The position numbers and the translations under genes are program-made. Positions 18,758 to 37,165 of a DNA stretch of 64,000 nucleotides are shown one piece after another. Origin of the DNA: an uncultured Aquimarina sp. GTDB lineage: Bacteria; Bacteroidota; Bacteroidia; Flavobacteriales; Flavobacteriaceae. The DNA is taken from assembly GCF_947500065.1 (NCBI RefSeq), contig NZ_CANMQT010000007.1, positions 186,001 to 250,000 on the forward strand, in the 5' to 3' direction. Every line of letters begins with the position of its first letter. The first letter of the stretch is position 1. The notes beneath the pieces were generated by a model. That model saw nothing but the letters and a program-made list of their open reading frames with translations, did not search any database and was not told the DNA's origin.

Positions 18758-19025
18758 TGTAATACCATACCATACATTTTTAGGTTTCATTTTAACATAA
18801 AAATTATTGTTAAAATACTTGTTATAAGCTATTTTTTGTTTTTTTTCATGTTTAATGATTGTAGATTGTTTAGTTTTCGCAAGGTTTTTACGGTTATACC
18901 ATATTTTTTTAAAAATATTTACCATCTGAAACACCTTGATTTTACTGGTTTTTTAGGTAAGATATTATCGGGAAATCCATTGTTGTGAGAAAATTAAGAA
19001 AAAGTTGTTGTAAATTAGGAAGTAT

Positions 19026-19058
19026 AATTATTTAGTAATAATTGTGTGGCTAACTCAA
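19026..19058 (+). promoter_or_regulatory. Hairpin plus shared GGCTAACTCAA block at the start of the first membrane regulator
   Basis: AATTATT / AATAATT form a 7-bp hairpin at 19026-19043, directly before TGTGGCTAACTCAA (19045-19058), which overlaps the GTG start at 19046. The last 11 bases, GGCTAACTCAA, are the exact reverse complement of TTGAGTTAGCC found before all three susC-type genes. The second regulator has the same 14-base block but in another reading frame. The function is inferred: an operator or an RNA-pairing site. Confidence 0.55.
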
Positions 19059-20563
19059 AAAAAATAATATTAAATTCATTATTTAGTGCTTTTATTTTCT
19101 TATTTATTTCATCATCATTATATAGTAAATCCGATAAAATAAATAATATAAGTAATAAGGGCACCGATCTTAATGATGTCATAATTTCTGCAAAGAAATA
19201 TTATGACAATAGCCGGTATGCTCTGGCTATAAAAAATTATGAAATGGCTTTAGAAGCAAAATCCAGTGATTCTATAGCTATATTTAAAAAGTTAGCATTT
19301 TCTTATGCTAAGAATAATCAACCAGACCTTGCGAGTGAATACATAAATAAATATGTGATTGCAAATCTCGATCCTTCTTTTGTGCGGCACAGTTATTTTG
19401 ATGTAATTAGTGACTCCGAATCCTATCAATTATTAGTAGATAAGTACCTCAAACAAGTTGGACTATGGTCTATTTTCTGCTTTTATGTTGCATTTATAGG
19501 TTTTTTTATATCGATTGTTTTAAATTTTAGAGAAAAGTCGGATAAAGTAGCCAATCTACTGATGAGTGCCTTCATATTGATACATTCAGTTTTTATAATT
19601 CATATAGGTTTATATTTTTCTAACTATCAGTATTATTTGCCTCATATATTGTATATGTCCACATTGTTTTCATTTCTATATGGACCACTTATTTATTTTT
19701 ATTTCAAAAGGGTTACTATAAATTATAGGTTTCAACGTTTGGATTTGTTGCATTTGATACCAACCATTTTATTATTCATATTAATGTTTCCAATTTATAA
19801 CCTTCCTTCAAGTGAAAAATTAAGAATAATACTAAATGAAGAAAGACCTTATGTAAATCTAGTATCAATTTCTAAATTGATATCCTTATTGATCTATGGA
19901 GGTTTAGTTATAAAAATGTATTTAAATTCTATTAAAATCAATAAATACTTTTCCAAGATAGTATTTAACTGGCAGAGAAATATTGTTGTTTTTTGTTCGG
20001 TGTATATAATTTCCTATGGGATATATGCAATACTGATCGTAAAACATGTTTTTAGCGGCTTTTTATTTTATATTCAGATTGTATCCATGGCCTTACTGGT
20101 TTTATATGTGAGCTATACCGCTTTTGTTCAACCTAGCGTTTTTGGGACTTTAAGGTTGATTAAAAATAATATACTACCTGAAATTGATAAGTATAAGAAA
20201 TCTGGTCTTACCGAAAGTTTATCGCTAGAGTTAAAAGAGAAGTTGCGATACCTTCTGGATGAAAAGAAAGTTTATAAACAAAACAATATTACCCTTCAGA
20301 AATTAGCGCAATATTTGGACACTACAAGACATAATACTTCTCAGATTATAAATGAACATTTTAATCTAAACTTTTTTGAATTGATTAATAAGTATAGAAT
20401 TGAAGAAGCAAAAGAACTACTAAAAGCAGAAAAACATAAGAACTTTAATATTATTGATATTGCCTATGAAGTAGGTTTTAATAATAAAGTTACTTTTAAT
20501 AAATCTTTTAAGAAGTACAATCAGATTACTCCATCAGAATACGTTAAATCTTTCGTAGCCTAA
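19046..20563 (+). CDS. Seven-TM membrane-bound AraC-family regulator with periplasmic TPR-like region (copy 1)
   Basis: A 505-residue protein. In order: signal peptide or first helix (about 1-27); periplasmic TPR-like helices (about 45-115, DVIISAKKYYDNSRYALAIKNYEMAL and KKLAFSYAKNNQPDLASEYI); seven hydrophobic segments (about 138-360, starting WSIFCFYVAFIGFFISIVL); and a cytoplasmic AraC-type double helix-turn-helix (about 405-505, LQKLAQYLDTTRHNTSQIINEHF and IIDIAYEVGFNNKVTFNKSFKKY). The layout suggests a receptor that senses outside the inner membrane and binds DNA directly. The GTG start at 19046 is the only candidate that keeps the signal peptide. A close paralogue follows at 20915, and susC-type genes lie beyond it, making these likely targets. 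The ligand is unknown. Confidence 0.85.
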   Translation: MANSKKIILNSLFSAFIFLFISSSLYSKSDKINNISNKGTDLNDVIISAKKYYDNSRYALAIKNYEMALEAKSSDSIAIFKKLAFSYAKNNQPDLASEYINKYVIANLDPSFVRHSYFDVISDSESYQLLVDKYLKQVGLWSIFCFYVAFIGFFISIVLNFREKSDKVANLLMSAFILIHSVFIIHIGLYFSNYQYYLPHILYMSTLFSFLYGPLIYFYFKRVTINYRFQRLDLLHLIPTILLFILMFPIYNLPSSEKLRIILNEERPYVNLVSISKLISLLIYGGLVIKMYLNSIKINKYFSKIVFNWQRNIVVFCSVYIISYGIYAILIVKHVFSGFLFYIQIVSMALLVLYVSYTAFVQPSVFGTLRLIKNNILPEIDKYKKSGLTESLSLELKEKLRYLLDEKKVYKQNNITLQKLAQYLDTTRHNTSQIINEHFNLNFFELINKYRIEEAKELLKAEKHKNFNIIDIAYEVGFNNKVTFNKSFKKYNQITPSEYVKSFVA

Positions 20564-20620
20564 TCTTTGGCTAAACTTATTTCCTTTCTGAAAACTACAA
20601 ACGTATTTTCTCACATAATA

Positions 20621-20691
20621 TTAACATAAGCTTTTGTGAATAAAATGGGATAAACTATAAGTTTTGTTAATTAACATATAGCTTATGTTAA
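20621..20691. repeat. 12-bp perfect inverted repeat in the upstream region of the second regulator
   Basis: TTAACATAAGCT (20621-20632) and AGCTTATGTTAA (20680-20691) are perfect reverse complements 47 bases apart, with the palindrome GTTAATTAAC (20666-20675) between them. They lie in the 351-base gap (20564-20914) between the two regulator genes, where I see no gene. A candidate operator or RNA stem controlling the second regulator. TTGGCTAAACTTAT at 20570-20583, just after the first regulator's stop, partly resembles the shared GGCTAACTCAA block. Confidence 0.45.
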
Positions 20692-20908
20692 GATTTATAC
20701 GTTGAGAAATACAATTAATTTTCGTGATATTAGGTTGTGTTTATTTTAATTAAGTATCTGGTTGTTTGGGTTTTATGGTTTTGTTTTTGAGATAATTTGA
20801 TTGTCATGAAATTGATATAATGGTGAAATATTATGCTAATTGTAAAGAAGTGGTTTTGATAGAAAATAAAAACATATCGTAAATTGCTGGATTAGGTATT
20901 TGTTTAAC

Positions 20909-20933
20909 TTAATTATGTGGCTAACTCAATTAA
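20909..20933 (+). promoter_or_regulatory. Hairpin presenting the start codon and shared GGCTAACTCAA block of the second regulator
   Basis: TTAATT (20909-20914) pairs with AATTAA (20928-20933), leaving ATGTGGCTAACTC as a 13-base loop that holds the ATG start (20915). The 14-base block TGTGGCTAACTCAA at 20916-20929 equals that of the first regulator. An overlapping GTTTAA/TTAAAC pair (20902-20907 and 20930-20935) gives an alternative stem. The loop is complementary to the susC leader loops. Confidence 0.5.
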
Positions 20934-22432
20934 ACATTACCATAGGATTACTATTTAGGGCTTTACTTTTTTTAATTTCTTTATCTGTTAATGCTTCACA
21001 AGAAGAAGGATTAGGTTCGAAGAATAATAAGCCAAAGATTGATAGTTTGTTTTATTCTGCGGAAGATAATTTTCAGAATGAGCAATATCTTATGGTCATT
21101 TCGGAATGTAAAAAAGCATTAAAAATTGGAACTATTGATTCGTCACTGGTTTACAAGAAAATGGCGTTTGCCTATACTAAATTAAATCAACCAGAACTCG
21201 CTTGTGAGTATATAGAGAAATATATAAGAAAAAGTCTAGATGTTAATTTTATTGGGCATAGCTATTTTAAAGAAATAAGCTATTCTAAAGCCTACCAGGC
21301 GTTATCAGATAAATACCTTAAAAAAATAAGTTTTTGGTCTTTGTTTTGTTTATATGTAGGGTTCATAGGTGTTTTTATATATACCATGTTGAATTTAAGA
21401 AAAGGACTCGATAAGGTCGCAAATTTCTTGATAAGTACTTTTTTGTTAATCCATTCTTTTTTTATTATTCGTGTTAGTATATTACTTACTAATTATGAAT
21501 ATTACTTACCTCATACATTATATTTATCGGCGTCATTTTCCTTTTTGTATGGACCTCTTATTTATTTTTATTTTAAAAGGGTAGCTTCAAAGTATCAATT
21601 TAAGTTATTGGATATATTTCATTTATTACCAACGGTCATTTTTCTGATTATTCTAATTCCGATTTATTCTTTACCTCCAGAGGAAAAATTAAGAATGATA
21701 CTAAATAATGAGAGACCATACTTAAGTACAATCGTGATTTTTAAATTGATATCGTTAATAGGATACATAACTTTGATCATAATAATGTATTTTACTTCAA
21801 TTCGAAATGATAAAAGTTTAGCCAAAAAAGAACGCAATTGGTTACGGAATATAGTAATCTTTTGTACTATTTATATTGTTTCTTACACCATTTATGCGGG
21901 CCTTATAAATCAATCTATTATAAGAGGCTTTTTATTTTATTTGCAGATTATTTCTATGTCTCTTTTGGTATTGTATATAAGTTATACTGCTTATTCTCGT
22001 TTAAATACTGTAGATAATTTAAAACAACTAAAAGATAAAACTAAAATAAAATTTAGCAAATATCGGAAATCAAACCTCACCCAAGGTTTATCAATAGAAT
22101 TGAAAGAAAAATTATTGGAGCTTCTTGATCAGGAAAAAATTTATCTTCAAAATGATATCACCCTTCAAAAACTCGCAGATTATTTAGATACTACTCGTAA
22201 TAATGCTTCTCAAATTATAAACGAACACTTTAATCTTAATTTTTTTGAATTAATTAATACCTATCGGATTCGGGAAGCAAAAGAAATTTTAAAGAAAGAA
22301 AAATCTAAAAATGTCAATATAATTGAAGTTGCTTATGCAGTTGGCTTTAATAATAAAGTAACATTTAATAGGTCTTTTAAGAAATATAATCACATCACTC
22401 CATCCGAATACGTGAAATCCCTCGTTGCTTGA
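20915..22432 (+). CDS. Seven-TM membrane-bound AraC-family regulator with periplasmic TPR-like region (copy 2)
   Basis: A 505-residue paralogue of the preceding gene, similar along its full length. I chose the ATG at 20915 (MWLTQLNITIGLLFRALLFL) over an upstream in-frame TTG at 20900 because it gives the same length as copy 1 and a normal hydrophobic N-terminus. It has a periplasmic TPR-like region (about 48-115), seven membrane segments (about 140-360, starting FWSLFCLYVGFIGVFIYTML) and the AraC-type domain (about 405-505, KLADYLDTTRNNASQIINEHF and IIEVAYAVGFNNKVTFNRSFKKY). The recognition-helix regions of the two copies are almost identical, so they may bind the same sites, while the periplasmic parts differ more. 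It lies 262 bases before the first susC-type gene. Confidence 0.87.
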   Translation: MWLTQLNITIGLLFRALLFLISLSVNASQEEGLGSKNNKPKIDSLFYSAEDNFQNEQYLMVISECKKALKIGTIDSSLVYKKMAFAYTKLNQPELACEYIEKYIRKSLDVNFIGHSYFKEISYSKAYQALSDKYLKKISFWSLFCLYVGFIGVFIYTMLNLRKGLDKVANFLISTFLLIHSFFIIRVSILLTNYEYYLPHTLYLSASFSFLYGPLIYFYFKRVASKYQFKLLDIFHLLPTVIFLIILIPIYSLPPEEKLRMILNNERPYLSTIVIFKLISLIGYITLIIIMYFTSIRNDKSLAKKERNWLRNIVIFCTIYIVSYTIYAGLINQSIIRGFLFYLQIISMSLLVLYISYTAYSRLNTVDNLKQLKDKTKIKFSKYRKSNLTQGLSIELKEKLLELLDQEKIYLQNDITLQKLADYLDTTRNNASQIINEHFNLNFFELINTYRIREAKEILKKEKSKNVNIIEVAYAVGFNNKVTFNRSFKKYNHITPSEYVKSLVA

Positions 22433-22463
22433 TTTTTTAACCGTTAAATTATATAATTTTTTA

Positions 22464-22653
22464 GGTAAACTTATGTAGGGTATACCCTCTATAAGCCTCT
22501 CCGTGTGTTTCTTTAACTCGATAATCATAAAGAAGGGAGGGTAGAATATGATTACATTATTCTACCTGTACTTTGTACTTTGTTCTTGTTCGAGTTTTAT
22601 AAAATATATTGAGTTAGCCTTCATTTTATTCTAGCCTTCCTTCTTATGATTAT
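22464..22653 (+). promoter_or_regulatory. Structured leader element before the first susC-type gene
   Basis: From 5' to 3': a degenerate GGTAAAC...GGTATACC dyad (22464-22486); the left arm of a long stem (22521-22547); an 80-base interior; TTGAGTTAGCC (22609-22619), 75 bases before the start codon; and the right arm (22628-22653). The arms give 24 Watson-Crick pairs, one G-U pair, one mismatch and one bulge by eye. TTGA-GTTAGCCT-TCAT forms a weak small hairpin with GTTAGCC in the loop. TACTTTG twice at 22569-22582 could be promoter elements. The same layout recurs before the other two susC-type genes. Confidence 0.65.
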
Positions 22654-22694
22654 ACAAAAGCTATTTGATAATATAATCTAGAAAAAAATTATTT

Positions 22695-25600
22695 ATGAGA
22701 GTACATCATTACAAATTGCTAATGTTCATGTTTTTGATATCTAGCATTGCATTTGCTCAACAAAAAACAATCACAGGTAATGTTACCGATGATAGTGGTT
22801 TACCATTGCCTGGTGTTAATGTATTAGTGAAAAACACTAATAATGGAACCCAAACGGATTTCGATGGTAATTATACGATTAATGCGCCAAGAGGAGCTGT
22901 TTTAACCTTCAGCTATGTAGGTTTTACTAACAAAGACATCGCAGTAGGTGATTCAGACACTATCAATGTGCAACTAGAAGCTTCAGCAGCGGAGTTAGAG
23001 GAAGTTGTGGTAGTTGCTTATGGATCGCAGGCTAAAAAGAAATTAGTAACCAGTATTAGTACAGTTTCAAATGCTGATATTGCAGATATTATTGCAGATT
23101 CTCCCCAGAATATATTGCAAGGGCAAGCATCTGGGGTTCAGGTGTTTTCTAGCTCTGGAGGTCTGGGCTCTGCTCCTACAATTAATATCAGGGGTACTAG
23201 TTCTATAGGAAGTAATACTAGACCGTTGTTCGTTGTTGATGGAGTAACTCTAGGAGACAGTTTTACCACTTTTAATCAAGGTTCTGGAGCAGGTATTAAT
23301 CCTTTGGCTAATATAAATCCAAATGATATTGAGAGCATATCTGTTCTAAAATCGGCAGCAGCTGCAGCGTTGTATGGTTCTCGTGGAGGGAATGGGGTTG
23401 TATTAATTACTACCAAACGTGGAAATAAAAATGGAAAAGTGACGGTTGACATAGATGTAAACACTTCGTTTGCTAGAATAACCGATACACCAAATTTATT
23501 AAATGCTCAGCAATACATTGACTTCACAACACTCGTAAGAAATGGTTCTGCAGTATCAGCAAATCCACTAACTAGCGCAGGAGGGGAGTTTGATGCATTA
23601 GATGCTATTTTGAGAACCGCTGTAAGCCAGTCCTATAATTTTAGTATAAGAGGAGGTAATGAAAACACAAACTATTTTATCGGAGCTACACGTGAAGATC
23701 AAGAAGGTATAAGAATAGGTGATAACCTTGAGAGAACTAGCTTTAGATCTAATATACAGGTTAAAGCCACTGATTGGTTAACAGCGACCTTAAATGCTAG
23801 TATATCAAATAATCGATTTGATAGAGTCCCTAATGAAAATAGTTTTGCTTCACCATATACCATTGCTTTACTGCAACGACCAGATGTGGTACCATTTGAT
23901 GATCAAGGCAATTTTACTACAACTGGCAATGTTGGTGGAGGTAATGTGATAGCTCAAGAAGCATTAAATCTTAACTTAGCTACGACCACCCGTATTGTTG
24001 GAAATGGTTCTTTAGATTTCAATTTATCTTCTCTAATAGATGGTTTAGGTTTTAAACAAGATATAGGAATTGATAGAACGTTTACGGAAAATCAAACAAG
24101 AAATGTTGACCTATTAGTTGAAGACGGATCAGCAGCCAATTCTGTGTTTCAACAAAATAGATATATTCTTAACAGTTTATTATCGTATAATAAAACTTTT
24201 GGTGATGCACACAATTTAAGTCTTTTGGCAGGATACTCCTTTGAGGACAATCAATTTAGGAATGTTCAAGTATCAGGTACAGGATTTTTATCCGATGCAC
24301 AACAAAATGTCGAGTCGGCTTCAACATTTCCTCTTACCTCTTCAAGCGGTGATGCAAATAGACTAGTATCTTATTTAGGTAGAGCGTCATATGATTATGC
24401 AGATGGTAGATATATTCTTGAAGGCTCCATAAGAAGAGATGGTTCTTCTAGATTTGGTGCCAATAATAGATTTGGAACATTCTGGTCAGCAGCAGTAGGA
24501 TGGAATATATCTGATGAAGCGTTTATGCAGAATGTAGACTGGGTTCAAGGACTAAAACTAAATGCAAGTTATGGTACGACTGGAAATGATCGTATTGGTA
24601 ATTTCGCATCCTTAGGGACTTTTGAAGGAAATAATTATAATGGTGAGCCTGGACTTACACCTTTCAGATTACCAAATCCTGATTTACAATGGGAAAGTAC
24701 TACAACTCGGGATATTGGGTTAACCGCTTCTTTTTTCAATAGAAGGTTAAGTTTTAATGTAGAATATTATAAAAACGTGACAGACGATTTAATTTTATTT
24801 GTTCCTGTAGATCCAACATTTAACAATGGACTTAATGGAGTAAACCGAAACATAGGAGAATTAGAAAACACTGGTTTTGATGTAACTATAGATGCTGTGA
24901 TTTTGAATGGTGCAAACGACGGCCTTAAATGGACTTCAAGTTTAAATCTTGGAATTAATGAAAATGAAGTAACAAATCTCCCTGAAGGATCGAGCGTAGA
25001 TGAGCTTGGAAATAGATTTGTTGAACGTACGGGTGGATCTCTAGCATTTTCAGGACAGAGAGCTATAGAAGGTTTCTCTGCAAATTCTTGGTATTTAATA
25101 CCATATATAGGAGTTAACCCTCAGACAGGTGATGCAGAATGGTTAGGTGCTGACGGCAATCCAACGACAACTCCAGTAGCTGCCGATAGACGTATAGTAG
25201 GTCAAGCAAATCCCGATGTAATCGGAGGATTTAGTAATGTATTTACATATAAAAACTGGTCATTAAATACATTATTCAATTTTTCTATTGGTAATGATGT
25301 ATTACTAACTTCTAGAGAATTTACTGAAAACCCAATAAGCGGGTTTAATAAATCAGATAGAGTTTTAAATATATGGCAGCAACCTGGAGATCAAGCTTTT
25401 ATACCAAGTCCTGATAGTCCAACCATAAATACTTTTAATCAAAGCTCAAGTGCACAACTCGAGGATGGGTCTTTCGTAAGATTAAAAAATGTGACTTTAT
25501 CTTACACACTTTCTCAGCAACATTTAGAGAAAATTTTTATTAATAAAGTAAGATTATATGCTACGGCTACAAATCTATTGACCTTTAAAAGTGATGGATT

Positions 25601-25718
25601 AGATGGATATGATCCTGAATTGTCCAATGGTGCTGATGGTAATGATGCGGCAGGCCAAGATTTCTTTACTTTACCGCAAGCATCAACATATACTTTTGGA
25701 ATTAATCTTTCTTTCTAA
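22695..25718 (+). CDS. SusC/RagA-family TonB-linked outer membrane protein (unit 1)
   Basis: A 1007-residue outer-membrane importer. Signal peptide to about residue 22 (ISSIAFAQQ); carboxypeptidase-regulatory-like domain (about 24-100, TGNVTDDSGLPLPGVNVLVKN and DFDGNYTI); the TonB-box-like EEVVVVAYGSQ; the plug (about 115-230, PTINIRGTSSIGSNTRPLFVVDG and ALYGSRGGNGVVLITTK); then the 22-strand barrel ending YTFGINLSF. SusC proteins form a gated pore capped by the SusD lipoprotein, whose gene follows after 24 bases. Its leader ties it to units 2 and 3. The substrate is not evident. Confidence 0.95.
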   Translation: MRVHHYKLLMFMFLISSIAFAQQKTITGNVTDDSGLPLPGVNVLVKNTNNGTQTDFDGNYTINAPRGAVLTFSYVGFTNKDIAVGDSDTINVQLEASAAELEEVVVVAYGSQAKKKLVTSISTVSNADIADIIADSPQNILQGQASGVQVFSSSGGLGSAPTINIRGTSSIGSNTRPLFVVDGVTLGDSFTTFNQGSGAGINPLANINPNDIESISVLKSAAAAALYGSRGGNGVVLITTKRGNKNGKVTVDIDVNTSFARITDTPNLLNAQQYIDFTTLVRNGSAVSANPLTSAGGEFDALDAILRTAVSQSYNFSIRGGNENTNYFIGATREDQEGIRIGDNLERTSFRSNIQVKATDWLTATLNASISNNRFDRVPNENSFASPYTIALLQRPDVVPFDDQGNFTTTGNVGGGNVIAQEALNLNLATTTRIVGNGSLDFNLSSLIDGLGFKQDIGIDRTFTENQTRNVDLLVEDGSAANSVFQQNRYILNSLLSYNKTFGDAHNLSLLAGYSFEDNQFRNVQVSGTGFLSDAQQNVESASTFPLTSSSGDANRLVSYLGRASYDYADGRYILEGSIRRDGSSRFGANNRFGTFWSAAVGWNISDEAFMQNVDWVQGLKLNASYGTTGNDRIGNFASLGTFEGNNYNGEPGLTPFRLPNPDLQWESTTTRDIGLTASFFNRRLSFNVEYYKNVTDDLILFVPVDPTFNNGLNGVNRNIGELENTGFDVTIDAVILNGANDGLKWTSSLNLGINENEVTNLPEGSSVDELGNRFVERTGGSLAFSGQRAIEGFSANSWYLIPYIGVNPQTGDAEWLGADGNPTTTPVAADRRIVGQANPDVIGGFSNVFTYKNWSLNTLFNFSIGNDVLLTSREFTENPISGFNKSDRVLNIWQQPGDQAFIPSPDSPTINTFNQSSSAQLEDGSFVRLKNVTLSYTLSQQHLEKIFINKVRLYATATNLLTFKSDGLDGYDPELSNGADGNDAAGQDFFTLPQASTYTFGINLSF

Positions 25719-25742
25719 ATAGTTTAACGATAATACACACGT

Positions 25743-27143
25743 ATGAAAACGAATATAAATAAAAACAATAAATTTAGTGTACTAGTACTTTTATTAGTAA
25801 TACTAACAACTTCTTGCGAAGATAAAATAGAATTATTACCTGAAGATGAAACAGCTTCTGAAGTCGTGTTTTCAAATGGTCCTTTAGCTTTAGGAGCTGT
25901 GACAGGGATATATAATAGAGCACAACAGGATGATGTATTGAACGGTACGCTGCAATTTATGACAGAATGGCAAGCCGATAATGTAGATTTTATAGGTACA
26001 TTTTCAACATTTGAACAAGTAAGTGCTTACGCAACATTGGCTGCTAATACTTCAATTTTTGGTATCTGGGATGATAATTACGAAGTTATCGGAGCTGCAA
26101 ATCTAGTTATTGATAATGTTCCTTTAATTGATGATGTAAACTTTACAGAAGAACAACGTGCGCAGGCTATAGCAGAAGCTAGATTTCTAAGAGCCCTAGT
26201 ATATTTTAATATATCTACGGTTTTTGGACAACCTTTACAAGCTGGAGCAGGTAGAGCTAATTTAAGTGTTCCTCTTGTAACAACATCAGAACGAGGTTTA
26301 GAATTGCCCAGAGCAACTTTAGGCGAAGTATATGATTTTGTAGAATCCGAGTTCTTAGCTATTATTCCAGATTTGGCAGATAATACTAGAATATTAGCTA
26401 ATCCTGGAGCTTGCAGAGCATTTTTAGCAAAATTATATCTATACGAAGAACGTTGGGATGAAGCTGCAAATTTTGCAAACGATGTAATCAACGATCCTTT
26501 TTATACATTAGCCACAGATTATTCGTTCTATGATTCACCTGATGCAACAGAACATATATTTACGCTATTAAATGACGCAGTTAATGGTCAGGATAGTGGA
26601 CAAGGTTTTTCTGGATTAAGTAATCCCGTGAATGGAGGTAGAGGTGATGTTCCTTTCTCCCAAAATTTGTTAGATACATTTGCAGAAGAAGCTGGAGATC
26701 TAAGGTTTACGACTCAGACAGGACCAGGTGCTGAAGGTGTGGATAGAATATTTACTGATAAATTTCCTGAGGATGCTAATAATTCAGATGATGCTCCTGT
26801 GATGAGAATTACTGAAATGTATCTAACCAGAGCAGAAGCTAATTTTAGAGGAGGCTCATCTATAGGTGCCACACCGCTTGATGACATTAATATTCTTAGA
26901 AACAGAGCTGGATTAGCTGATTTAACTAGTGTTGATTTAGATATTATTTTAAATGAGCGCAGAAAAGAGTTGGCTTTTGAAGGACAAAGACGAATGGATC
27001 TTTTGAGAAATAACTTGAGTTTGAGAAGACCTGGCCAACCAAATGAAGCTGTATCAGCACCAGGAATGGACAAAACTATATTTCCTATACCTCAAACAGT
27101 TAGGGATTTATCTCCATTTATTGATCAAAACCCTGGTTACTAA
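25743..27143 (+). CDS. SusD/RagB-family nutrient-binding lipoprotein (unit 1)
   Basis: A 466-residue outer-membrane lipoprotein. The signal peptide ends TTSC with the lipidated Cys at about residue 25. Typical SusD features are the TPR-like helices (AQAIAEARFLRALVYFNISTVFGQPL, then RAFLAKLYLYEERWDEAANFANDVI) and the C-terminal RITEMYLTRAEANFRGG, LNERRKELAFEGQRRMDLLR and FPIPQTVRDLSPFIDQNPGY. It acts as the lid on the partner SusC at the cell surface. The pair ends in a terminator and no SusE-like gene follows, unlike unit 2. Confidence 0.95.
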   Translation: MKTNINKNNKFSVLVLLLVILTTSCEDKIELLPEDETASEVVFSNGPLALGAVTGIYNRAQQDDVLNGTLQFMTEWQADNVDFIGTFSTFEQVSAYATLAANTSIFGIWDDNYEVIGAANLVIDNVPLIDDVNFTEEQRAQAIAEARFLRALVYFNISTVFGQPLQAGAGRANLSVPLVTTSERGLELPRATLGEVYDFVESEFLAIIPDLADNTRILANPGACRAFLAKLYLYEERWDEAANFANDVINDPFYTLATDYSFYDSPDATEHIFTLLNDAVNGQDSGQGFSGLSNPVNGGRGDVPFSQNLLDTFAEEAGDLRFTTQTGPGAEGVDRIFTDKFPEDANNSDDAPVMRITEMYLTRAEANFRGGSSIGATPLDDINILRNRAGLADLTSVDLDIILNERRKELAFEGQRRMDLLRNNLSLRRPGQPNEAVSAPGMDKTIFPIPQTVRDLSPFIDQNPGY

Positions 27144-27168
27144 TTACAATAAAATATTATATAAAAGT

Positions 27169-27200
27169 AAAGGCCTACTGAAAAGTAGGCCTTTTTTTAT
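27169..27200 (+). terminator. Terminator after susD unit 1
   Basis: AAAGGCCTACT / AGTAGGCCTTT form an 11-bp stem with a GAAA tetraloop, followed by a run of T. It starts 26 bases after the SusD stop codon. Confidence 0.9.
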
Positions 27201-27323
27201 TCTCATACTTCAAGACTTATCTTTTTCGTAAGTGGTTAAATTTCGAAAGCATATTGTAATAATGTTTATATGATGGAACTGGAACAGTTGTTACAAATAT
27301 TAATCCTAATACTATTTTGGTGC

Positions 27324-27353
27324 AAGATAATACTTCATTTGAAGTATTATCTT
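27324..27353. repeat. Second terminator-like hairpin in the intergenic stretch between units 1 and 2
   Basis: AAGATAATACTTCA and its perfect reverse complement form a 14-bp stem with a two-base loop, 123 bases past the first terminator. It overlaps the end of a short open stretch (27263-27361) reading DGTGTVVTNINPNTILVQD, which has no start codon and looks like the tail of a lost gene. The gap 27144-27789 otherwise holds the unit 2 leader from 27587; at 27361-27586 I see nothing beyond AT-rich sequence. Confidence 0.45.
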
Positions 27354-27586
27354 TTCATTAAGGATAATGATATAAAGGACTAAATAAGACACTTCTTATA
27401 TGATAACTACTTAATTCTATATAATTCGGTGTTTTTTTTTGTAAAAAGTTGTAAAATTTCTTGAATAAGTCTTTCTAAAAAGTGAAATAAGATTACCCTA
27501 CTCATATAGGTTAAATAGCTCGTAGCCTAATTCTCTTAAGGTTTTAAGTAAGCTTTCTTCGGAAGAAGTAAAGTTTATTCGGTAAA

Positions 27587-27750
27587 GGTAAACCTTGATA
27601 AGGGTTACCCAGCTTTATGTTTTCTATTATTTCTTTTACAGGGTAATCATAAAGAGGATGGGCAATTTCTATATAGACTTTGTTCAAGTTTTATGAAATG
27701 TAATATTTGAGTTAGCCATCAAGATATTCTTGCCATCCTTTTATGATTAC
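27587..27750 (+). promoter_or_regulatory. Structured leader element before the second susC-type gene
   Basis: GGTAAACC (27587-27594), a seven-base loop and GGGTTACC (27602-27609) form the upstream hairpin. The long stem pairs 27643-27665 with 27730-27750 (21 Watson-Crick pairs, two single-base bulges). TTGAGTTAGCCA (27707-27718) lies 72 bases before the start and forms the small hairpin TTGA-GTTAGCCA-TCAA. The preceding 45 bases, from AGTAAA, closely match the unit 3 leader. TAGACTTTG at 27674-27682 resembles a -7 promoter element with one extra base. Confidence 0.7.
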
Positions 27751-27789
27751 ACTATCTCTAATAAAGTAATTATTGAAAAATTCTAATCT

Positions 27790-30700
27790 ATGAAAGGACA
27801 TCAATACAAGTTGCTGGTGCTTGCTTTTTTTTTATCAAGCATTTCATTAGCACAACAAAAAACAATTTCCGGAACGGTAGCGGACGACTTAGGAGTACCA
27901 TTACCAGGAGTGAATATTGTAGTTAAGAATACAACGAACGGAACTCAAACTGATTTTGACGGCAATTATACGATCTCGGCAAATCGTGGAGCTATATTGG
28001 TTTTTAGTTATTTGGGATTTACAACTCAAGAAATAATAGTAGCTGATAGTAATACAATTAGTATAGCTTTAGTGCAAGATGCCGCTCAACTAGAAGAAGT
28101 AGTGGTAACTGCTTTTGGTATTCAAAGAAACTCAAAAAAACTGGGATATGCGGTGAGTACTGTTAAACCAGATAAAGTTCTGGAAAATTCCGAACCAGAT
28201 TTAATACGATCTTTAACGGGTAAAGTACCTGGAGTGAATGTTAATCTATCGACAGGGGTTGCAGGAGCTTCCAACCAAATTAATATACGAGGTGCTACTA
28301 CGTTAGGAGCAGCTAGTCAACCGCTTATTATTGTTGATGGTATTGCTTACGATAATTCACAGGTAACAACCGCTAGTCAAACTACTGGAGGAGGAGGGTA
28401 TGAGTCAGGGTTATCTTCTTTAGATCCAAATAGTATAGCTTCTATTACAGTTCTAAAAAGTACAGCAGCAGCAGCACTTTATGGTTCTAGAGCTACAGGA
28501 GGAGTTATCGTAATTACTACTAAAGCAGGATCAACAGGAGGATCAACTAATAATAAACTGACTGTTTCACTATCTTCTGGAACTTATTTTGAAAATATTG
28601 CAAATTTACCAGAGTATCAAAATACTTATGGTAATGGTGTGAATTTTAGTTATTTAAATGCTAATGGTTCTTGGGGACCAAGATTTGATTCATTAGCTAC
28701 TATACCAACTTGGCCTAATGTGTTGGCTGCATTTCCGGAAATAGGACCTACCGTTCCTTATGAAGCACAACCAGATAATGTCAAAAACTTATTCAAAACA
28801 GGAAGAGTTCTTGATAATTCAATTAGCCTTGGTTATAATGGAGAAGATGGAAACTTCAATGTTACTATTTCTGATTTAGATCAAGATGGATATATACCAT
28901 TTAATACATATGATAGAACATCAATTATTGCCGGAGGTAATTTTAAACTTGCTAACGGTATTAAGGTAGGAGCTTCTTTAACTTATTCGGAAACTGATCA
29001 GGTAGGAGGTTTTTTTGGTGAAAACCAATTTGCAGGGTCAGCATCTTCTTTTGCAAGAACCTTATGGTTAGGAAGAACCTGGAACTTTGACTTACCTTTT
29101 GAGAATCCGGTAACAGGAGCTTCTGTAACTCCTAATAATGGGTATGATCACCCATTATGGTCTTGGAAACACGATCAGATTCTTACGGATACGAATAGAA
29201 TCGTGACTAATGTGAATTTAGGGTATGATTTTAATGATAATATTTCTGTAGCTTACAGAGTAGGATTTAACAGATATAACTTAAGGAGAAAGCAAATTCG
29301 AGATATTGGATCTAGAGCTAATAATGGGCTAGGATCAATAACAACGGATGATTTTATTAATGAAGATTTAGAATCTACTTTATTAGTAAACTTTAATTAT
29401 GATTTAACAGAAGATATTAATTTAACTGCTATTGTTGGGAATAATGTATTACAAAATACAACTCAGCGTAGTGCATATCAAGGGACTAACTTTATATCTC
29501 CTAATATATTTAATATAGCGAACACTATTAATCAGTCCAATTTATTGGATAGTTTTACCAGATCAAGAAATGTGGGTGTATTTGGAGATCTAAGTTTATC
29601 TTTTAAAGAATATCTATTTCTAAATGCTACGGGAAGAAATGATTGGAGTTCTTCATTACCAAAGAATAATCAGTCTTATTTCTATCCTTCAGCCAGTTTA
29701 TCATTAATATTCACGGATGCTTTTAATTTGGATAGCAAAGTGCTAACATTTGGTAAATTAAGGGCAGGTTATGCTTCAGTAGGTAACGATGTTGCTGCCG
29801 AATCTCTGAATAGAACATTTGCTATAGGTAATCCTTTTAGTGGTATTCCAGTTATAAACAACAATGTTACTCTAGGAGATCAAGAACTTACTCCAGAATT
29901 TACCGATGAGATTGAATTTGGAGTGGACTTAGAGTTTTTTAATGCTAGAGCCGTTTTAGATTTTAGTTGGTATAAGAAAACAACTACTGATTTAATTTCT
30001 CCTGTTAGTGTTCCATCAACAAGTGGTTTTACCACATTGGTTACTAATATTGGTGAGATGCAGAATACGGGTGTAGAAATAGGGTTAACTCTTATTCCGG
30101 TTAGAACAGATAATTTTAAGTGGGAAATTTTCACAACATTCACTAAGAATGAAAATGAAGTCACTGAATTAGTAGACGGATTAGATAGAATTCAATTAGA
30201 TCCTAATCAAGTGGCCCATGCAATAGTTGGCGAGCCATTCGGAGTATTTTTTGGATCTAGATTTGCGAGAGATGATCAAGGAAACTTCCTTATTAATCAA
30301 TCAGGAGGAGGAATTGTTCAGGATTTAGAAAATGGTATTGTAGGAGATCCGAATCCTGATTTCAAAGTTGGTTTTATAAACACCTTCAAGTATAAGAATT
30401 TAACTTTCGGTGCTCAGATTGACTGGAGAGAAGGAGGAGATATCCGATCTACAAGTATCAATGCATTATTAGGAAGAGGAGTTACCCGAGATACTGAAGA
30501 TAGAGAAAGAACATTTATTATTCCTGGTTTCTATGGTGATAATCAAGGAAATCCTATTCTAGATGCTAATGGAAATCAAATTCCGAATACTACACAGATT
30601 GATACAAATGAATTATACTTCTCACCTGCAGGAGGTAACACTTTCGGAATTAATACCGTAGATGAAGGTTTTGTATATGATGGTACTGTTTATAGATTAA

Positions 30701-30936
30701 GAGAATTAAGCTTAAGTTATGACTTTCCCGCTAAATTGTTGAAATCTACACCATTTGGAAAAATCAGCTTAAGTCTATTAGGTAACAACCTATGGTATTT
30801 TGCTCCTAATGTTCCTAAATACACAAATTTTGATCCAGAAGTAACCAGTTTTGGTTCCGGAAGAATTCAAGGTATTGAGGTTTCAGCTGCCCCAACATCA
30901 AAACGATACGGCTTTAAACTTAATTTATCCTTTTAA
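27790..30936 (+). CDS. SusC/RagA-family TonB-linked outer membrane protein (unit 2)
   Basis: A 1048-residue SusC-type importer with a signal peptide (SSISLAQQ), carboxypeptidase-regulatory-like domain (TVADDLGVPLPGVNIVVKN, about 26-100), TonB-box-like EEVVVTAFGIQ, plug (about 115-240, NQINIRGATTLGAASQPLIIVDG and ALYGSRATGGVIVITTK) and barrel. NDWSSSLPKNNQSYFYPSASLS and the terminal RYGFKLNLSF are typical of the family. Its start region resembles those of units 1 and 3, but the barrel differs and is about 40 residues longer than the others. It is followed after five bases by a SusD-like gene and shares the structured leader, so regulation by the same factor is likely. Confidence 0.95.
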   Translation: MKGHQYKLLVLAFFLSSISLAQQKTISGTVADDLGVPLPGVNIVVKNTTNGTQTDFDGNYTISANRGAILVFSYLGFTTQEIIVADSNTISIALVQDAAQLEEVVVTAFGIQRNSKKLGYAVSTVKPDKVLENSEPDLIRSLTGKVPGVNVNLSTGVAGASNQINIRGATTLGAASQPLIIVDGIAYDNSQVTTASQTTGGGGYESGLSSLDPNSIASITVLKSTAAAALYGSRATGGVIVITTKAGSTGGSTNNKLTVSLSSGTYFENIANLPEYQNTYGNGVNFSYLNANGSWGPRFDSLATIPTWPNVLAAFPEIGPTVPYEAQPDNVKNLFKTGRVLDNSISLGYNGEDGNFNVTISDLDQDGYIPFNTYDRTSIIAGGNFKLANGIKVGASLTYSETDQVGGFFGENQFAGSASSFARTLWLGRTWNFDLPFENPVTGASVTPNNGYDHPLWSWKHDQILTDTNRIVTNVNLGYDFNDNISVAYRVGFNRYNLRRKQIRDIGSRANNGLGSITTDDFINEDLESTLLVNFNYDLTEDINLTAIVGNNVLQNTTQRSAYQGTNFISPNIFNIANTINQSNLLDSFTRSRNVGVFGDLSLSFKEYLFLNATGRNDWSSSLPKNNQSYFYPSASLSLIFTDAFNLDSKVLTFGKLRAGYASVGNDVAAESLNRTFAIGNPFSGIPVINNNVTLGDQELTPEFTDEIEFGVDLEFFNARAVLDFSWYKKTTTDLISPVSVPSTSGFTTLVTNIGEMQNTGVEIGLTLIPVRTDNFKWEIFTTFTKNENEVTELVDGLDRIQLDPNQVAHAIVGEPFGVFFGSRFARDDQGNFLINQSGGGIVQDLENGIVGDPNPDFKVGFINTFKYKNLTFGAQIDWREGGDIRSTSINALLGRGVTRDTEDRERTFIIPGFYGDNQGNPILDANGNQIPNTTQIDTNELYFSPAGGNTFGINTVDEGFVYDGTVYRLRELSLSYDFPAKLLKSTPFGKISLSLLGNNLWYFAPNVPKYTNFDPEVTSFGSGRIQGIEVSAAPTSKRYGFKLNLSF

Positions 30937-30941
30937 AAAAA

Positions 30942-32648
30942 ATGACGATGAAAAACATAATAAAAAATACATTTCGTAAAACTAAATTTTTTATTGCGCT
31001 CTTTTTCTCACTTCTTGTGTTGAGCTGCAGTGACTATTTAGATGTGGATACGGATACTGATAATCCTACCGTTGCACCTCTAAACCAGTTACTAACTGGT
31101 ATTGAAGTAAATATTGGATCTGTTGCAGATTTTCAATTCTTTAGCGCAGATATACTTCAGGTGTATACACACCAATTTACTGCCAGAGAAGAGCAAGATC
31201 AGTATGGCGCGAAGGCAGATAATATTTTAATGAATAATGATTGGAATAATGTCTATCTAGGATTAACAGATATAGAAACATTAATTTCTCAAGCCACAGA
31301 AAGTGGTGATCTGATTTATATAGGTACTGCAGAAATACTTAAGGCATATTTGATGTCCGTTGCAGTTGATCTTTGGGGAGATGTTCCTTTTTCTGAAGCA
31401 ACTTTATTAGAGACAGGTACTGTGAGTCCAGTTTTTGATGATCAACAAGTAATCTATCAAGCTGTATTGGATTTAATAGATTCAGGAAAAGTTAATGTTC
31501 AGAGTGGGGTAGGTATAGCTCCTACTACAGATGATTTATTTTATGGAGGTTCTACGGCTCAATGGGTGAAATTTGCAAATACACTTAAATTAAAGTTATA
31601 TAATCAAATAAGACTATCTCCATTATTTAATCAAGCTGACTTTAACGCTTTAGTGGCTGAAGATAATTTTATGACTTCTAATGCGGATGACTTTCAATTT
31701 AACCATAGCGCTGCGCAAGCACCTTCAGATGAACGTAACCGACTCTTTTTAGATGCGTATGGTGGGGCTCAAGTAACAAAATATGCAAGTCCTTGGTTTT
31801 ATGAGATTTTACGAGGAGTAAATCCTAACATCCATACAACTAATCCAGACCCAAGATTACCATATTATTTTGTGAATCAATTATTACCGGGACAGTTTCC
31901 AAGAGACCAAGGAGATATGGTAACAGGTGATCCTAATGCAGATTATTGGGATGCTTCAACAGGGTTTTTTAGTATTCGATTTGGTAGTATAGGACCTGAT
32001 AGAGATGGAGCCGTACAAAATGATGCTACTTTTCCTGGAATTTTCCCTTGTGGAGGACGATATGATGATGGCGCTGGATTTGCTAGAACCATCAATAGTG
32101 GAACAGGTGTAGCGCCTAAACGAATTCTTACATACGATGAGTTTTTATATATACAAGCTGAGTTAATGCAAGTTGGTTTAATGACAGGTGATGCAGGAGC
32201 AAAATTAAGAGAAGCTATGACAGCGAGTTTTGCTAAGGTGGATCAGGTAGTAACAGGAACGGGTACGTCTCAAACCGTGCCTGTATTAGCAGGATCTGCA
32301 GCGGTAACCACATTTATGGATAACGTAGACACAGAATTTGCAGCCGCGAGTATAGATAAGCAGCTGGAGATCATAATGACTCAAAAATGGGTAGCAACAT
32401 TTGGAGATCCTATGGATCAGTATACTGATTATAGAAGAACGGGGTATCCAGTTTTAGCAGATCCTAATGGACCTTCTCCAGAGTACCAGTTAAATAATGG
32501 TGATGGATTTCCTTTGGTTGATAATTTAACGGTTCTGAATAATGATTTTCAGGTTTCTTTATTCTGGCCTCAGAGAGAGTTAAACCTTAATCAAAATGCA
32601 CCAGGTCAAAAAAATGCGACGACTTATAAAATATTTTGGGATAACTAA
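30942..32648 (+). CDS. SusD-like nutrient-binding lipoprotein, SusD-like_2 type (unit 2)
   Basis: A 568-residue lipoprotein; the signal peptide ends LLVLSC (Cys at about residue 29). It belongs to the divergent SusD-like_2 branch: NTLKLKLYNQIRLSP, YDEFLYIQAELMQVGLM, IIMTQKWVATFGDPMDQYTDYRRTGYP and the terminal LFWPQRELNLNQNAPGQKN fit that group better than the RagB type of units 1 and 3. The start may be the ATG at 30942 or at 30948 (MKNIIKN). It begins five bases after the partner SusC stop and should form the lid of that transporter. The different SusD class suggests a different ligand from units 1 and 3. Confidence 0.92.
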   Translation: MTMKNIIKNTFRKTKFFIALFFSLLVLSCSDYLDVDTDTDNPTVAPLNQLLTGIEVNIGSVADFQFFSADILQVYTHQFTAREEQDQYGAKADNILMNNDWNNVYLGLTDIETLISQATESGDLIYIGTAEILKAYLMSVAVDLWGDVPFSEATLLETGTVSPVFDDQQVIYQAVLDLIDSGKVNVQSGVGIAPTTDDLFYGGSTAQWVKFANTLKLKLYNQIRLSPLFNQADFNALVAEDNFMTSNADDFQFNHSAAQAPSDERNRLFLDAYGGAQVTKYASPWFYEILRGVNPNIHTTNPDPRLPYYFVNQLLPGQFPRDQGDMVTGDPNADYWDASTGFFSIRFGSIGPDRDGAVQNDATFPGIFPCGGRYDDGAGFARTINSGTGVAPKRILTYDEFLYIQAELMQVGLMTGDAGAKLREAMTASFAKVDQVVTGTGTSQTVPVLAGSAAVTTFMDNVDTEFAAASIDKQLEIIMTQKWVATFGDPMDQYTDYRRTGYPVLADPNGPSPEYQLNNGDGFPLVDNLTVLNNDFQVSLFWPQRELNLNQNAPGQKNATTYKIFWDN

Positions 32649-32725
32649 TAAATGAGATTTTGAAATGAGCCAACATATGTATTGGTAAATAAGTCTGACA
32701 ATTGATAAACTCTAAATTTTAACAG

Positions 32726-33610
32726 ATGAAAAAAATAAAAATAATAGCATGTATATTAACAATTGCAATGCTAGGAAACTCATGCCAAAATGATGGAGGT
32801 GAATCTTTCATTCCATTAAATGATGGTGTTGTTCCTAATATGCAAAAATTAGCAACAGGAGAAGCTTTCATTGATCTTTTTAAGATTGAAGATGGAGACC
32901 CGGTAAATCTTGAATTTAGTGCAGAAGTTGCGCAAGGAACTCCAGCTTCTACGGATGTGGTAGGAATATATAGAACAGCAGCTGGCCCCGTATATAATGC
33001 AACGCTGTTTAGTGGAGCAACCTTACCTCAAAACTATAGTCTGAATACCAATGATATTTTAGCTGCTTTTACAGAACTTAATAGCAATGACGATATTAAA
33101 TTAGGAGATATTTTAACTATAACTACACGATTTACAATGCCAGATGGTACGGTACTTAATATTGTAAATGAGGATGGTACTAGTAATACAGGAAGTAATA
33201 TTCAAACTACTGTTTTATTTGCGTCAGTTATAAACTATCCGGTAACCTGTCCTTCTGATTTAGGAGGTACATATTTGGTAACCAGTACTGCATCAGGATG
33301 TTGTGGTGTGGCACCAATTACAGATTATGAGTATACAGTAACCGTTACAGATAATGGTGGAGGATCATACGCATTATCTGATTTTTCAGGAGGAATGTAT
33401 GATGGTTTATTTTGCGGACCTTTTGCTATATGTGGTGATGCATCTGGAGGTAATATCACTGATATTTGTAATGAATTAAGCGGCTCAGCTCCAGATTGTT
33501 GTGGGGATAATATTGTGTTTGAAGGCATAGTAGATCCAGTAACCAAAAATTGGAATGTAAATATATCCAGTGGTTTTTTAGTAGGAACATCAGTTTGGGT
33601 TAAGCAGTAA
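32726..33610 (+). CDS. Exported lipoprotein at the SusE/SusF position (unit 2), function unknown
   Basis: A 294-residue lipoprotein (signal peptide ending MLGNSC, Cys at residue 20). The N-terminal half (about 30-170) is beta-rich with conserved-looking GEAFIDLFKIEDGDPVNLEF and DDIKLGDILTITTRF. The C-terminal half (about 172-294) is rich in Cys, with pairs in SGCCGV and PDCCGD and single Cys in YPVTCPSD, GLFCGP, AICGDA and DICNEL, which could form disulfides. It lies 77 bases after the SusD-like gene and before the unit terminator, so it belongs to the same operon. By position it may be a surface ligand-binding protein like SusE or SusF; I do not recognise the family. Confidence 0.75.
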   Translation: MKKIKIIACILTIAMLGNSCQNDGGESFIPLNDGVVPNMQKLATGEAFIDLFKIEDGDPVNLEFSAEVAQGTPASTDVVGIYRTAAGPVYNATLFSGATLPQNYSLNTNDILAAFTELNSNDDIKLGDILTITTRFTMPDGTVLNIVNEDGTSNTGSNIQTTVLFASVINYPVTCPSDLGGTYLVTSTASGCCGVAPITDYEYTVTVTDNGGGSYALSDFSGGMYDGLFCGPFAICGDASGGNITDICNELSGSAPDCCGDNIVFEGIVDPVTKNWNVNISSGFLVGTSVWVKQ

Positions 33611-33699
33611 TAAATAATATCAAGTTCAATAGTAAATCGAGAATGTTTTATAGATGATTTGTTTATAGGTTATAAAATGTTTTAGTTTTATTATTTAAT

Positions 33700-33737
33700 C
33701 AAGACATCGTCTTTATGGACGATGTCTTGTCTTTTTG
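33700..33737 (+). terminator. Terminator after unit 2
   Basis: CAAGACATCGTC / GACGATGTCTTG form a perfect 12-bp stem with a six-base loop, followed by TCTTTTTG. It starts 89 bases after the lipoprotein stop codon. Confidence 0.88.
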
Positions 33738-33779
33738 TATACTATTTAAGTTGGTTATGATTAGAAATTAATAGAAAAA

Positions 33780-33833
33780 ATGAAATATAACCCTTACCTG
33801 AATCCATATCTGAATCTTTATCCAAGCTTATAG
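33780..33833 (+). other. 17-codon micro-ORF with an internal repeat
   Basis: ATG at 33780 opens MKYNPYLNPYLNLYPSL and stops at TAG (33831-33833). The DNA carries an imperfect tandem repeat of the type CCnTAyCTGAAT. It follows the unit 2 terminator and precedes the unit 3 leader by 84 bases. It could be a leader peptide or only a short tandem repeat. The other parts of the 33611-34143 gap outside the terminator and leader show nothing I can name. Confidence 0.2.
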
Positions 33834-33917
33834 GGGTATTAGTTGTGTATATACAATCTTAAAGCTTAAAAGTAGTAAAATTCCCCAAATAACCCTTTTC
33901 CACTAATAAAAAGTAAA

Positions 33918-34105
33918 TTTTTATCGGTAAAGGTAAACCTTGATCAGGTTTACCCACCTTTTTGGTTTCTATAGCTTCCTTTATAAAGCAATTATAAAAA
34001 GAATGGGGCAAGGGATTACCGATAAAAATCGTGTAGTTTATTCTTATTGGTGATGTTATTATTGAGTTAGCCTTCAATATACTCTTGCCCTCCTTTTATG
34101 TTGTG
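33918..34105 (+). promoter_or_regulatory. Structured leader element before the third susC-type gene, with an extra crossing stem
   Basis: The upstream hairpin is perfect: GGTAAACC (33932-33939), TTGATCA loop, GGTTTACC (33947-33954). The long stem pairs 33989-34014 with 34082-34103/34105, imperfectly, with a strong GGGCAAGGG/CTCTTGCCC core. TTGAGTTAGCC (34062-34072) lies 71 bases before the start and forms ATTGA-GTTAGCCT-TCAAT. Unique to this copy, TTTTTATCGGTAA (33918-33930) and TTACCGATAAAAA (34016-34028) are perfect complements whose pairing crosses the long stem. Confidence 0.68.
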
Positions 34106-34143
34106 ACTAACTATTGGAGTATAAATCTTGAAAAATTTTATTT

Positions 34144-37100: not shown

Positions 37101-37152
37101 TTCAGCTCCTCCAGCTAAGACATACACTTTAGGTATAAATATTGATTTTTAA
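34144..37152 (+). CDS. SusC/RagA-family TonB-linked outer membrane protein (unit 3)
   Basis: A 1002-residue SusC-type importer. Signal peptide (SSIALAQQ), carboxypeptidase-regulatory-like domain (TVTDSKGLPLPGVNIIIKD, about 26-100), TonB-box-like EEVVVVGFGTQ, plug (about 115-230, GIKVRVRGISTISSSQEPLYVVDG and AIYGARGTNGVIIITTK), then the barrel with LRYDGSSRFGEENRFGWFPAASAGW and the terminal YTLGINIDF. It is closer in plan to unit 1 than to unit 2. No regulator gene lies beside it, so its leader, shared with units 1 and 2, is the main hint of how it is controlled. The SusD partner overlaps closely downstream. Confidence 0.95.
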   Translation: MKVNRYKLFVLVFFISSIALAQQRPISGTVTDSKGLPLPGVNIIIKDTNRGTQSDFDGVYTIEAADGEIIMYSYLGFITKEINVSNQNEIDVILEEDVSSLEEVVVVGFGTQSRRKITANIASISSDQINEIPTPSVQSTLTGKAAGVQVTQLNGKVEGGIKVRVRGISTISSSQEPLYVVDGIPITNADESINDSPINPLIALNPNDIESIDILKDASSAAIYGARGTNGVIIITTKQGKRGKTKVSLNSSYGVSSATNTRDWLNADQYVELITESALNVGISQAGIEGQFDFYANGLDWRTGEVDTDWQELALVDGSVQDFGVSVSGGSEKTRFFMSTAYNNTDGIVRGNQLERYSFRTNIDHNLSEKFRVGTNSSISKSIIDRISNDNAFATPLQAIAQTPLSPAYLADGVTPNNNTTEYYNFLTEEFNGNFKTNIWRILANVYAEYQILPELNFRSEIGYDLLSQVAERFSGSLTESASVGGFGTTNTVQTEKYNLNNYFTYNKVFNDVFDLEGTLGMSYEDSFRRAQFNQGQGFPSDDLQTLNSAAEIVAGGSSRTRFNFLSYFGRATLSIADKYLLKASLRYDGSSRFGEENRFGWFPAASAGWIISEESFLNNSAVVSLLKLRGSWGITGNAGIGNFASLSLFQGSPYNQRAGLAPTQLGNPALKWERTTQVDVGLDFGFLNNRISGEIDYYVKDTEDLLLNEPVPGTSGFPNITRNVGEMKNTGFEFIINTKNIVSQDGSWSTSLNFSTIDNEVTKLPGGDIIAGRNIVREGETVSSFYVVEFAGADPANGDALFIRNTVNADGTIDRSTTNNFNEADRIIAGSPYPDFIAGLTNNVTYKGIDFSFTFQGEWGASIYNNGGRFQSGNARFFDNQTTDQLRRWQQPGDITDVPQARLFSTNGQQASTRYLQDSDFIRLRNLTLGYTIPKDVTKKFYMERVRIYFTGFNLLTFTDYDGYDPESTADFNGDSNIQVGETFYSAPPAKTYTLGINIDF

Positions 37153-37165
37153 AAAACACATTGAT

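Follow-up and report, generated by a model that had tools for sequence, protein, structure and literature searches.

Polysaccharide loci of the Bacteroidota have been studied mostly through their protein regulators, and to our knowledge few small RNAs have been studied in the marine flavobacterial group. In the same phylum, the FopS small RNAs of Bacteroides thetaiotaomicron form a multicopy family that is described as pairing near the start codon of polysaccharide-locus mRNAs, with a single-stranded 5′ seed stretch and a terminator hairpin, susC as the target and a translation block shown in vitro (PMC11697453). In Vibrio cholerae, RNase E takes part in processing OppZ and CarZ out of 3′ UTRs, and such a same-operon RNA pairs with its own transcript and inhibits translation (PMC7398697). 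In the antisense systems hok/Sok and RNAII/RNAIII of pIP501, a YUNR loop serves as the contact point (PMC6562991). Rfp18 of Flavobacterium psychrophilum is reported to have predicted stem-loop pairing with protease and adhesin mRNAs (PMC9723704).

The Aquimarina locus analysed here, part of a 64-kb window (the whole stretch of DNA under study), points to an RNA feedback brake built into marine flavobacterial sugar-uptake loci, judging from sequence comparison. Set against FopS, its RNA element shares the phylum, membership of a multicopy RNA family and a predicted start-codon pairing at polysaccharide-locus mRNAs, but it is a long hairpin with loop seeds, lies inside the locus and has its site at the regulator gene. 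Folding predictions give long hairpins that carry the complementary segment in their loops, as opposed to a 5′ seed followed by a terminator hairpin. With OppZ and CarZ, the likeness would be feedback through an RNA that the operon itself supplies; in contrast to these, many of the present elements have promoter- or operator-like upstream sequence, they are often the leader of susC, and their action would be in trans, on a transcription factor. The genes of YUNR-loop antisense RNAs lie opposite their targets, whereas that of the present element lies elsewhere, on the same strand, with a match of about 9-20 nt; the UUAG in its loop fits YUNR. Rfp18 is likewise a flavobacterial RNA with predicted stem-loop pairing, and is set apart by its described targets. 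These are the nearest systems found. We class the element outside any known family, as a new family of RNAs that would work in the manner of known start-site antisense RNAs. Open-access titles and abstracts included none describing such an RNA at regulator starts, which is weak evidence of absence as subscription papers lie mostly outside that set.

Gene content and the repeated 11-mer

The locus consists of two paralogous membrane AraC-type HTH proteins (57% identical to each other) followed by three susC/susD units (Table 1). Hydropathy indicates about 6-7 hydrophobic segments in the membrane protein regulator 1. The nearest named Aquimarina loci show 77-79% identity. Convergent to susD3, an alpha-amylase with CBM26 and Por_Secre_tail domains occupies positions 38759-42208 of the window, which suggests an alpha-glucan substrate for the locus.

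Table 1 Features of the locus (window positions)
Feature	Position	Strand	Remarks
Operator-like motif GTAAGATATTATCGGG, upstream of regulator 1	18957-18972	+	
Regulator 1	19046-20563	+	GTG start; C-terminal AraC-type HTH, Pfam HTH_18 E 8.8e-16
Proposed RNA target site GTGGCTAACTCAAA over regulator 1 start codon	19046-19059	+	14 contiguous pairs with element 2, one G.U included
Regulator 2, paralogue	20915-22432	+	ATG start; HTH_18 E 2.9e-15
Proposed RNA target site, regulator 2 start	20917-20932	+	Score 30 against element 2; 13 contiguous pairs
Operator-like motif, upstream of element 1	22465-22479	+	
Predicted RNA element 1, before susC1	22521-22654	+	R3 E 4.9e-11, own sequence in training alignment
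11-mer, predicted loop part of element 1	22609-22619	+	
susC1	22695-25718	+	Pfam Plug, CarbopepD_reg_2; susD1 25743-27143, SusD_RagB
Tandem operator-like motifs, upstream of element 2	27568-27603	+	At 27568 and 27588; 20-bp period
Predicted RNA element 2, before susC2	27643-27751	+	R3 E 1.8e-22, training member; R2 27645-27747, E 0.0015
11-mer, predicted loop part of element 2	27707-27717	+	
susC2	27790-30936	+	Pfam; susD2 30942-32648
Protein after susD2	32726-33610		No Pfam match
Tandem operator-like motifs, upstream of element 3	33913-33948	+	At 33913 and 33933; 20-bp period
Predicted RNA element 3, before susC3	33988-34106	+	R3 E 1.2e-13, training member; R2 33992-34102, E 0.037
11-mer, predicted loop part of element 3	34062-34072	+	
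susC3	34144-37152	+	Pfam; susD3 37142-38527

A preliminary description of this DNA had reported five exact copies of an 11-mer, TTGAGTTAGCC, and none elsewhere in the window. All five were located at the positions and on the strands given there, and the 64-kb window holds no sixth. The spacing to the susC ATG, which it had called near-constant, is 75, 72 and 71 bases for susC1, susC2 and susC3. Its statement that the complement covers or abuts both regulator starts likewise holds: at regulator 1 the complement overlaps the GTG (19046-19048), and at regulator 2 it begins at 20919, with one base separating it from the ATG (20915-20917). The reading frames of the complement differ between the two genes (GTG GCT AAC TCA in regulator 1, ATG TGG CTA ACT CAA in regulator 2), which argues for conservation at the nucleotide level. 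Dinucleotide shuffles give a chance expectation of 0.02 copies, and five or more were obtained in 0 of 100 shuffles, in keeping with the earlier view that five copies are unlikely by chance.

The 11-mer is not common genome-wide: the 6.57 Mb contain 9 exact copies, 5 of them at the locus. Three of the four outside copies lie outside open frames of at least 80 codons and one inside such a frame, and tblastn, queried with the regulators, SusC and SusD of the window, found no match (E up to 1e-3) within 1.5 kb of any of the four. A genome-wide signal was accordingly rejected, the other four copies being unlinked.

A conserved hairpin around the 11-mer

All three susC leaders are predicted to fold as long hairpins with the 11-mer in the inner part. 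In this modelled structure, the 11-mer is the apical loop of a larger conserved hairpin, and only its tip. Apparently, the element is a previously undescribed, conserved hairpin RNA with a predicted length of ~110-130 nt. Two covariance models were used: R2, built from elements of other genera only (19 sequences, 27 pairs), and R3, built from Aquimarina elements (22 sequences, 25 pairs). R2 recovers two of the three window elements (2 and 3), with no match to element 1 at E up to 1 and none in the genome at E 0.001 in a family-wide search. Its scores for the window elements, 27-34 bits, are not overwhelming alone, as opposite-strand matches reach up to 35 bits; 15 of 81 R2 matches are the opposite strand of another listed match, as expected of hairpins. 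With R3 the genome yields three elements at E up to 1, all at the locus and all training members, so that the informative point is that there is no fourth.

The proportion of hairpin cells that are paired is 87.7% in the R2 set (at most 44.4% in slid controls) and 79.3% in the R3 set (at most 55.8%), each structure having been derived from the same sequences. Covariation scores exceed all 500 shuffles for both structures, and counts of doubly changed pairs are not above shuffles, 254 and 99 of 500 being equally high for the two models. Between positions 18000 and 39000, Rfam 15 gives no family at gathering score and four sub-gathering matches at E up to 1, none overlapping an element. RNAalifold on a mixed alignment gave no consensus structure, and a model built without base pairs (R1) was left unused.

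The loop reads UUGA-GUUAGCCA-UCAA, and its UUAG, which each of the three window loops has, conforms to the YUNR U-turn pattern. Most elements of other genera were selected by a pattern containing TTAG, so that their TTAG is by construction; L079 and L108 would pair via another segment than the TTAG loop. Upstream of the loop, Aquimarina elements carry a strongly conserved CTTTGTTCAAGTTTT segment (e.g. window 27678-27692), for which no target was found. A search of the genome with the conserved segment CTTTGTTCNAGTTTT of Aquimarina elements gave no clear second target.

Loops are complementary to regulator starts

Regulator homologues were taken from two overlapping sets, one of 149 family genomes, of which 58 gave a match at E 1e-20, and one of the best 76 named loci of 434 candidates. 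In these best 76, susC lies downstream on the same strand in 60, some of the others being cut by contig ends. The start window (-25 to +20) is more complementary to the linked susC leader than every internal window tested for 32 of 78 regulators with a linked susC, as against 2/78 for a same-strand control. The other 46 fail this strict test. By group, 26/48 Aquimarina regulators pass (control 2/48) and 6/30 of the others (control 0/30). The motif CTAAYTC occurs within -40 to +30 of 47 of 95 regulators, compared with 10 of 1900 internal windows, and is absent at the start of the remaining 48. With the first in-frame ATG or GTG taken as the start, Aquimarina sites follow it by 4-6 nt and those of the others precede it by 13-29 nt; this shift between lineages argues against conservation at the protein level.

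We compared site and loop across 46 regulators having both a CTAAYTC site and a downstream GARTTAG loop, a choice that fixes the core pairs. Matched changes outside this core occur at positions -3, -2, -1 and +4: position +4 has C-G in 30, T-A in 14, T-G in 1 and C-A in 1, and position -2 has G-C in 32, A-T in 6, G-T in 1 and no pair in 7. None of 2000 shuffles paired as well as the regulators' own loops, a result to which clade structure contributes. Loops were taken by pattern anywhere downstream in the locus, so that single entries can be chance; that of L046, whose leader has TTGGGTTAGCC, probably is. Among 22 non-Aquimarina loci (L082 and L100, which have no in-frame ATG, were dropped) own pairs show no advantage over cross pairs, with 1196 and 1484 of 5000 permutations as good. 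The covariation therefore rests on differences between lineages.

Complementarity in other letters is seen in another lineage as AAATGAGACAGA/TCTGTCTCATTT and in further ones as AAATGAAGTCAG/TTGACTTCATTT and TAGCTAATTCAAA/TTTGAATTAGCTA, as well as in L115 (AAAGACTAATTCA with TGAATTAGTCTTT), L078 (AAATGAGATCAA with TTGATCTCATTT) and, within Aquimarina, L047 (GGGCTAATTCAAAA with TTTTGAATTAGCCC). Some Maribacter-type elements have a second loop that matches the start codon, e.g. GUCUCAUUUU against AAAAUGAGAC in L080. An element is present with no clear site at the regulator start in L088, L092, L094, L096, L103 and L107, and the second regulator has no site in L048, L049, L050, L054 and L056.

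Ranked by their weakest duplex energy with the three loops, the two regulator starts come 1 and 2 among 187 candidate starts of the window, partly because all share the 11-mer; by the strongest single duplex energy they rank only second and fifth of the 187. When entire leaders were folded against entire 5′ ends as unconstrained duplexes, the pairing obtained was long and unspecific, and this approach was discarded.

A separate operator-like motif

The stretch 19045-34072 contains, beyond the 11-mer copies, separate operator-like repeats. Upstream of elements the repeated motif is roughly GTAAAC-N-TTTATCGG. A pattern GTAAAC..TTATCGG, written after inspection of example sequences, occurs within 120 nt of 49 of 69 elements (20/35 and 29/34), against 1.4% of random 120-nt windows. 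For regulators, it occurs in 66 of 93 of the 340-nt windows around the upstream region, for which the background is higher. The copy upstream of regulator 1 suggests transcriptional autoregulation; none was found before regulator 2 in the window. At 33932-33954, overlapping the operator-like repeat that precedes element 3, GGTAAACCTTGATCAGGTTTACC has two 9-base arms that are perfect inverted copies of each other. The promoter consensus T[AT]nnTTTG is matched near 38 of 69 element starts, against a background of 8.5%. Operator- and promoter-like sequences upstream argue for independent transcription starts of the elements.

These observations bear on whether the 11-mer is itself a DNA operator, bound as duplex by the regulators to activate susC and repress themselves. 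The word is common to regulators and targets, and matched changes at the two places would be expected of a protein site as well. Departures from pairing do not settle the choice between RNA pairing and a DNA operator, with 13 wobble pairs against 1 A.C at positions -1 to +8, the respective counts being 1 and 2 at -2, and 1 and 11 at -3. AraC operators, however, precede the promoters they control, often in the form of direct repeats spaced by about two helix turns. The 11-mer does not have this placement, being inside a conserved paired element and after the promoter-like site where one was found; GTAAAC..TTATCGG does, with its 20-bp tandem period in window copies, and is the likelier candidate AraC operator. 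That the regulators would bind it we infer from association. With the low pass rate of the same-strand control added, a role of the 11-mer as the regulators' operator is judged quite unlikely. Of the three readings offered in the preliminary description, the two RNA readings, pairing of the susC leader as feedback and a piece of an antisense RNA, thus fit, and the shared operator fits poorly.

Distribution and genomic setting of the element

In 52 genomes of the genus, R3 detects the element in 25 and the regulator (E 1e-60) is found in 28; all 25 element genomes have the regulator, 24 have neither, and 3 (G209, G244 and G248) have the regulator with no element detected. The Fisher p for this co-occurrence, 7e-12, is uncorrected for relatedness, and R3 was trained on elements beside regulators. 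R2 finds elements in 14 of 199 family genomes, and a regulator match is present in all ten of these that also belong to the 149-genome draw. A search of 296 genomes of the order with R2 returned two genomes already known and one 52-base match in another family, which is probably spurious. A regulator lies within 1.5 kb of 34 of 52 fetched element loci, the genome's own three included.

It is extremely improbable that the copies are a chance or inherited functionless repeat. The five are linked in one locus and could stem from duplication, but this reading is largely contradicted by the start-window test, the CTAAYTC enrichment and the co-occurrence over 52 genomes; the copy number expected by chance, the different frames at the two regulators and the complementarity kept with other letters in other genera also stand against it.

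The preliminary description spoke of a susC leader, a framing too narrow for related genera. Among 30 Maribacter-type elements (from other Flavobacteriaceae), 24 are not directly before a susC-size ORF and 6 lie 21-70 nt before one; 9 follow the regulator and are separated from the next ORF by 363-819 nt, and 15 lack any same-strand ORF of at least 100 aa within about 1.3 kb. An additional element lies between the two regulators in L048, L049 and L056. Second element copies occur after the susCD operon, near a convergent gene, at L076:18314, L080:16966, L093:18173 and L095:17051, among others, and that of L095 is followed by a long T run. At L092:11526 and L103:11527, an element directly follows the regulator with no clear complementarity to its start, and BLAST found no susC in the 10 kb downstream; these elements are possibly degenerate or retargeted.

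A candidate site for FopS-like pairing near a susC start was found by the scan in four loci only (L031, L032, L034 and L037). There, downstream of the regulator, GACTAAYTCA stands 51-56 nt after the loop TTTTTTGAATTAGTC and 24-27 nt before the susC start. By its sequence this loop could sequester its own susC start too, and the regulator may not be the only target of the element. A susC-start target in four loci of another lineage indicates that the loop can evolve to face other starts. These four loci, together with the fusion of each window element to susC, favour an element acting mainly in cis on susC, as a leader switch or translation control, with the complementarity to regulator starts secondary. 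The same scan after Aquimarina and Maribacter-type loops found no GACTAAYTCA-like site, and this, with the 24 of 30 Maribacter-type elements away from susC, makes such a main role unlikely.

Discussion

We consider it probable that the 11-mer serves as recognition loop in a structured RNA made from regulator-controlled promoters, which pairs with the regulator start and blocks initiation. The membrane AraC regulator would activate susCD and the RNA element as well as its own gene. The element, mostly the 5′ leader of susCD transcripts in Aquimarina and often what appears to be a free-standing RNA gene in related genera, would be transcribed with them, and its loop would pair in the cell with the regulator mRNA at the point where translation starts and block initiation. 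Accumulating element RNA would then limit new synthesis of the regulator. The simplest circuit would be positive autoregulation with RNA feedback at the regulator's translation start, spread over several operons.

The direction of the effect could be the reverse, with the RNA opening or protecting the regulator mRNA, or the regulator mRNA acting on the leader RNA, and sequence does not reveal direction. In Aquimarina, however, the pairing would cover or adjoin the start codon, where FopS blocks susC translation (PMC11697453), and positive pairing is very unlikely.

A block on regulator translation, as preferred above, could be one case of a broader arrangement, for which we see about an even chance. 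A gene for a hairpin RNA, equipped with an AraC operator of its own, would be placed, as leader or stand-alone copy, at the operons of a polysaccharide locus. Its one or two recognition loops would change together with the translation start of the gene being braked, which is susC in one of the lineages seen and the regulator in most, and fast RNA feedback would thereby be added to positive autoregulation.

A conserved RNA apparently aimed at the regulator, and encoded by the regulator's own operons, would explain limited, level induction across several operons. It would also add an RNA family with no Rfam match in a marine group.
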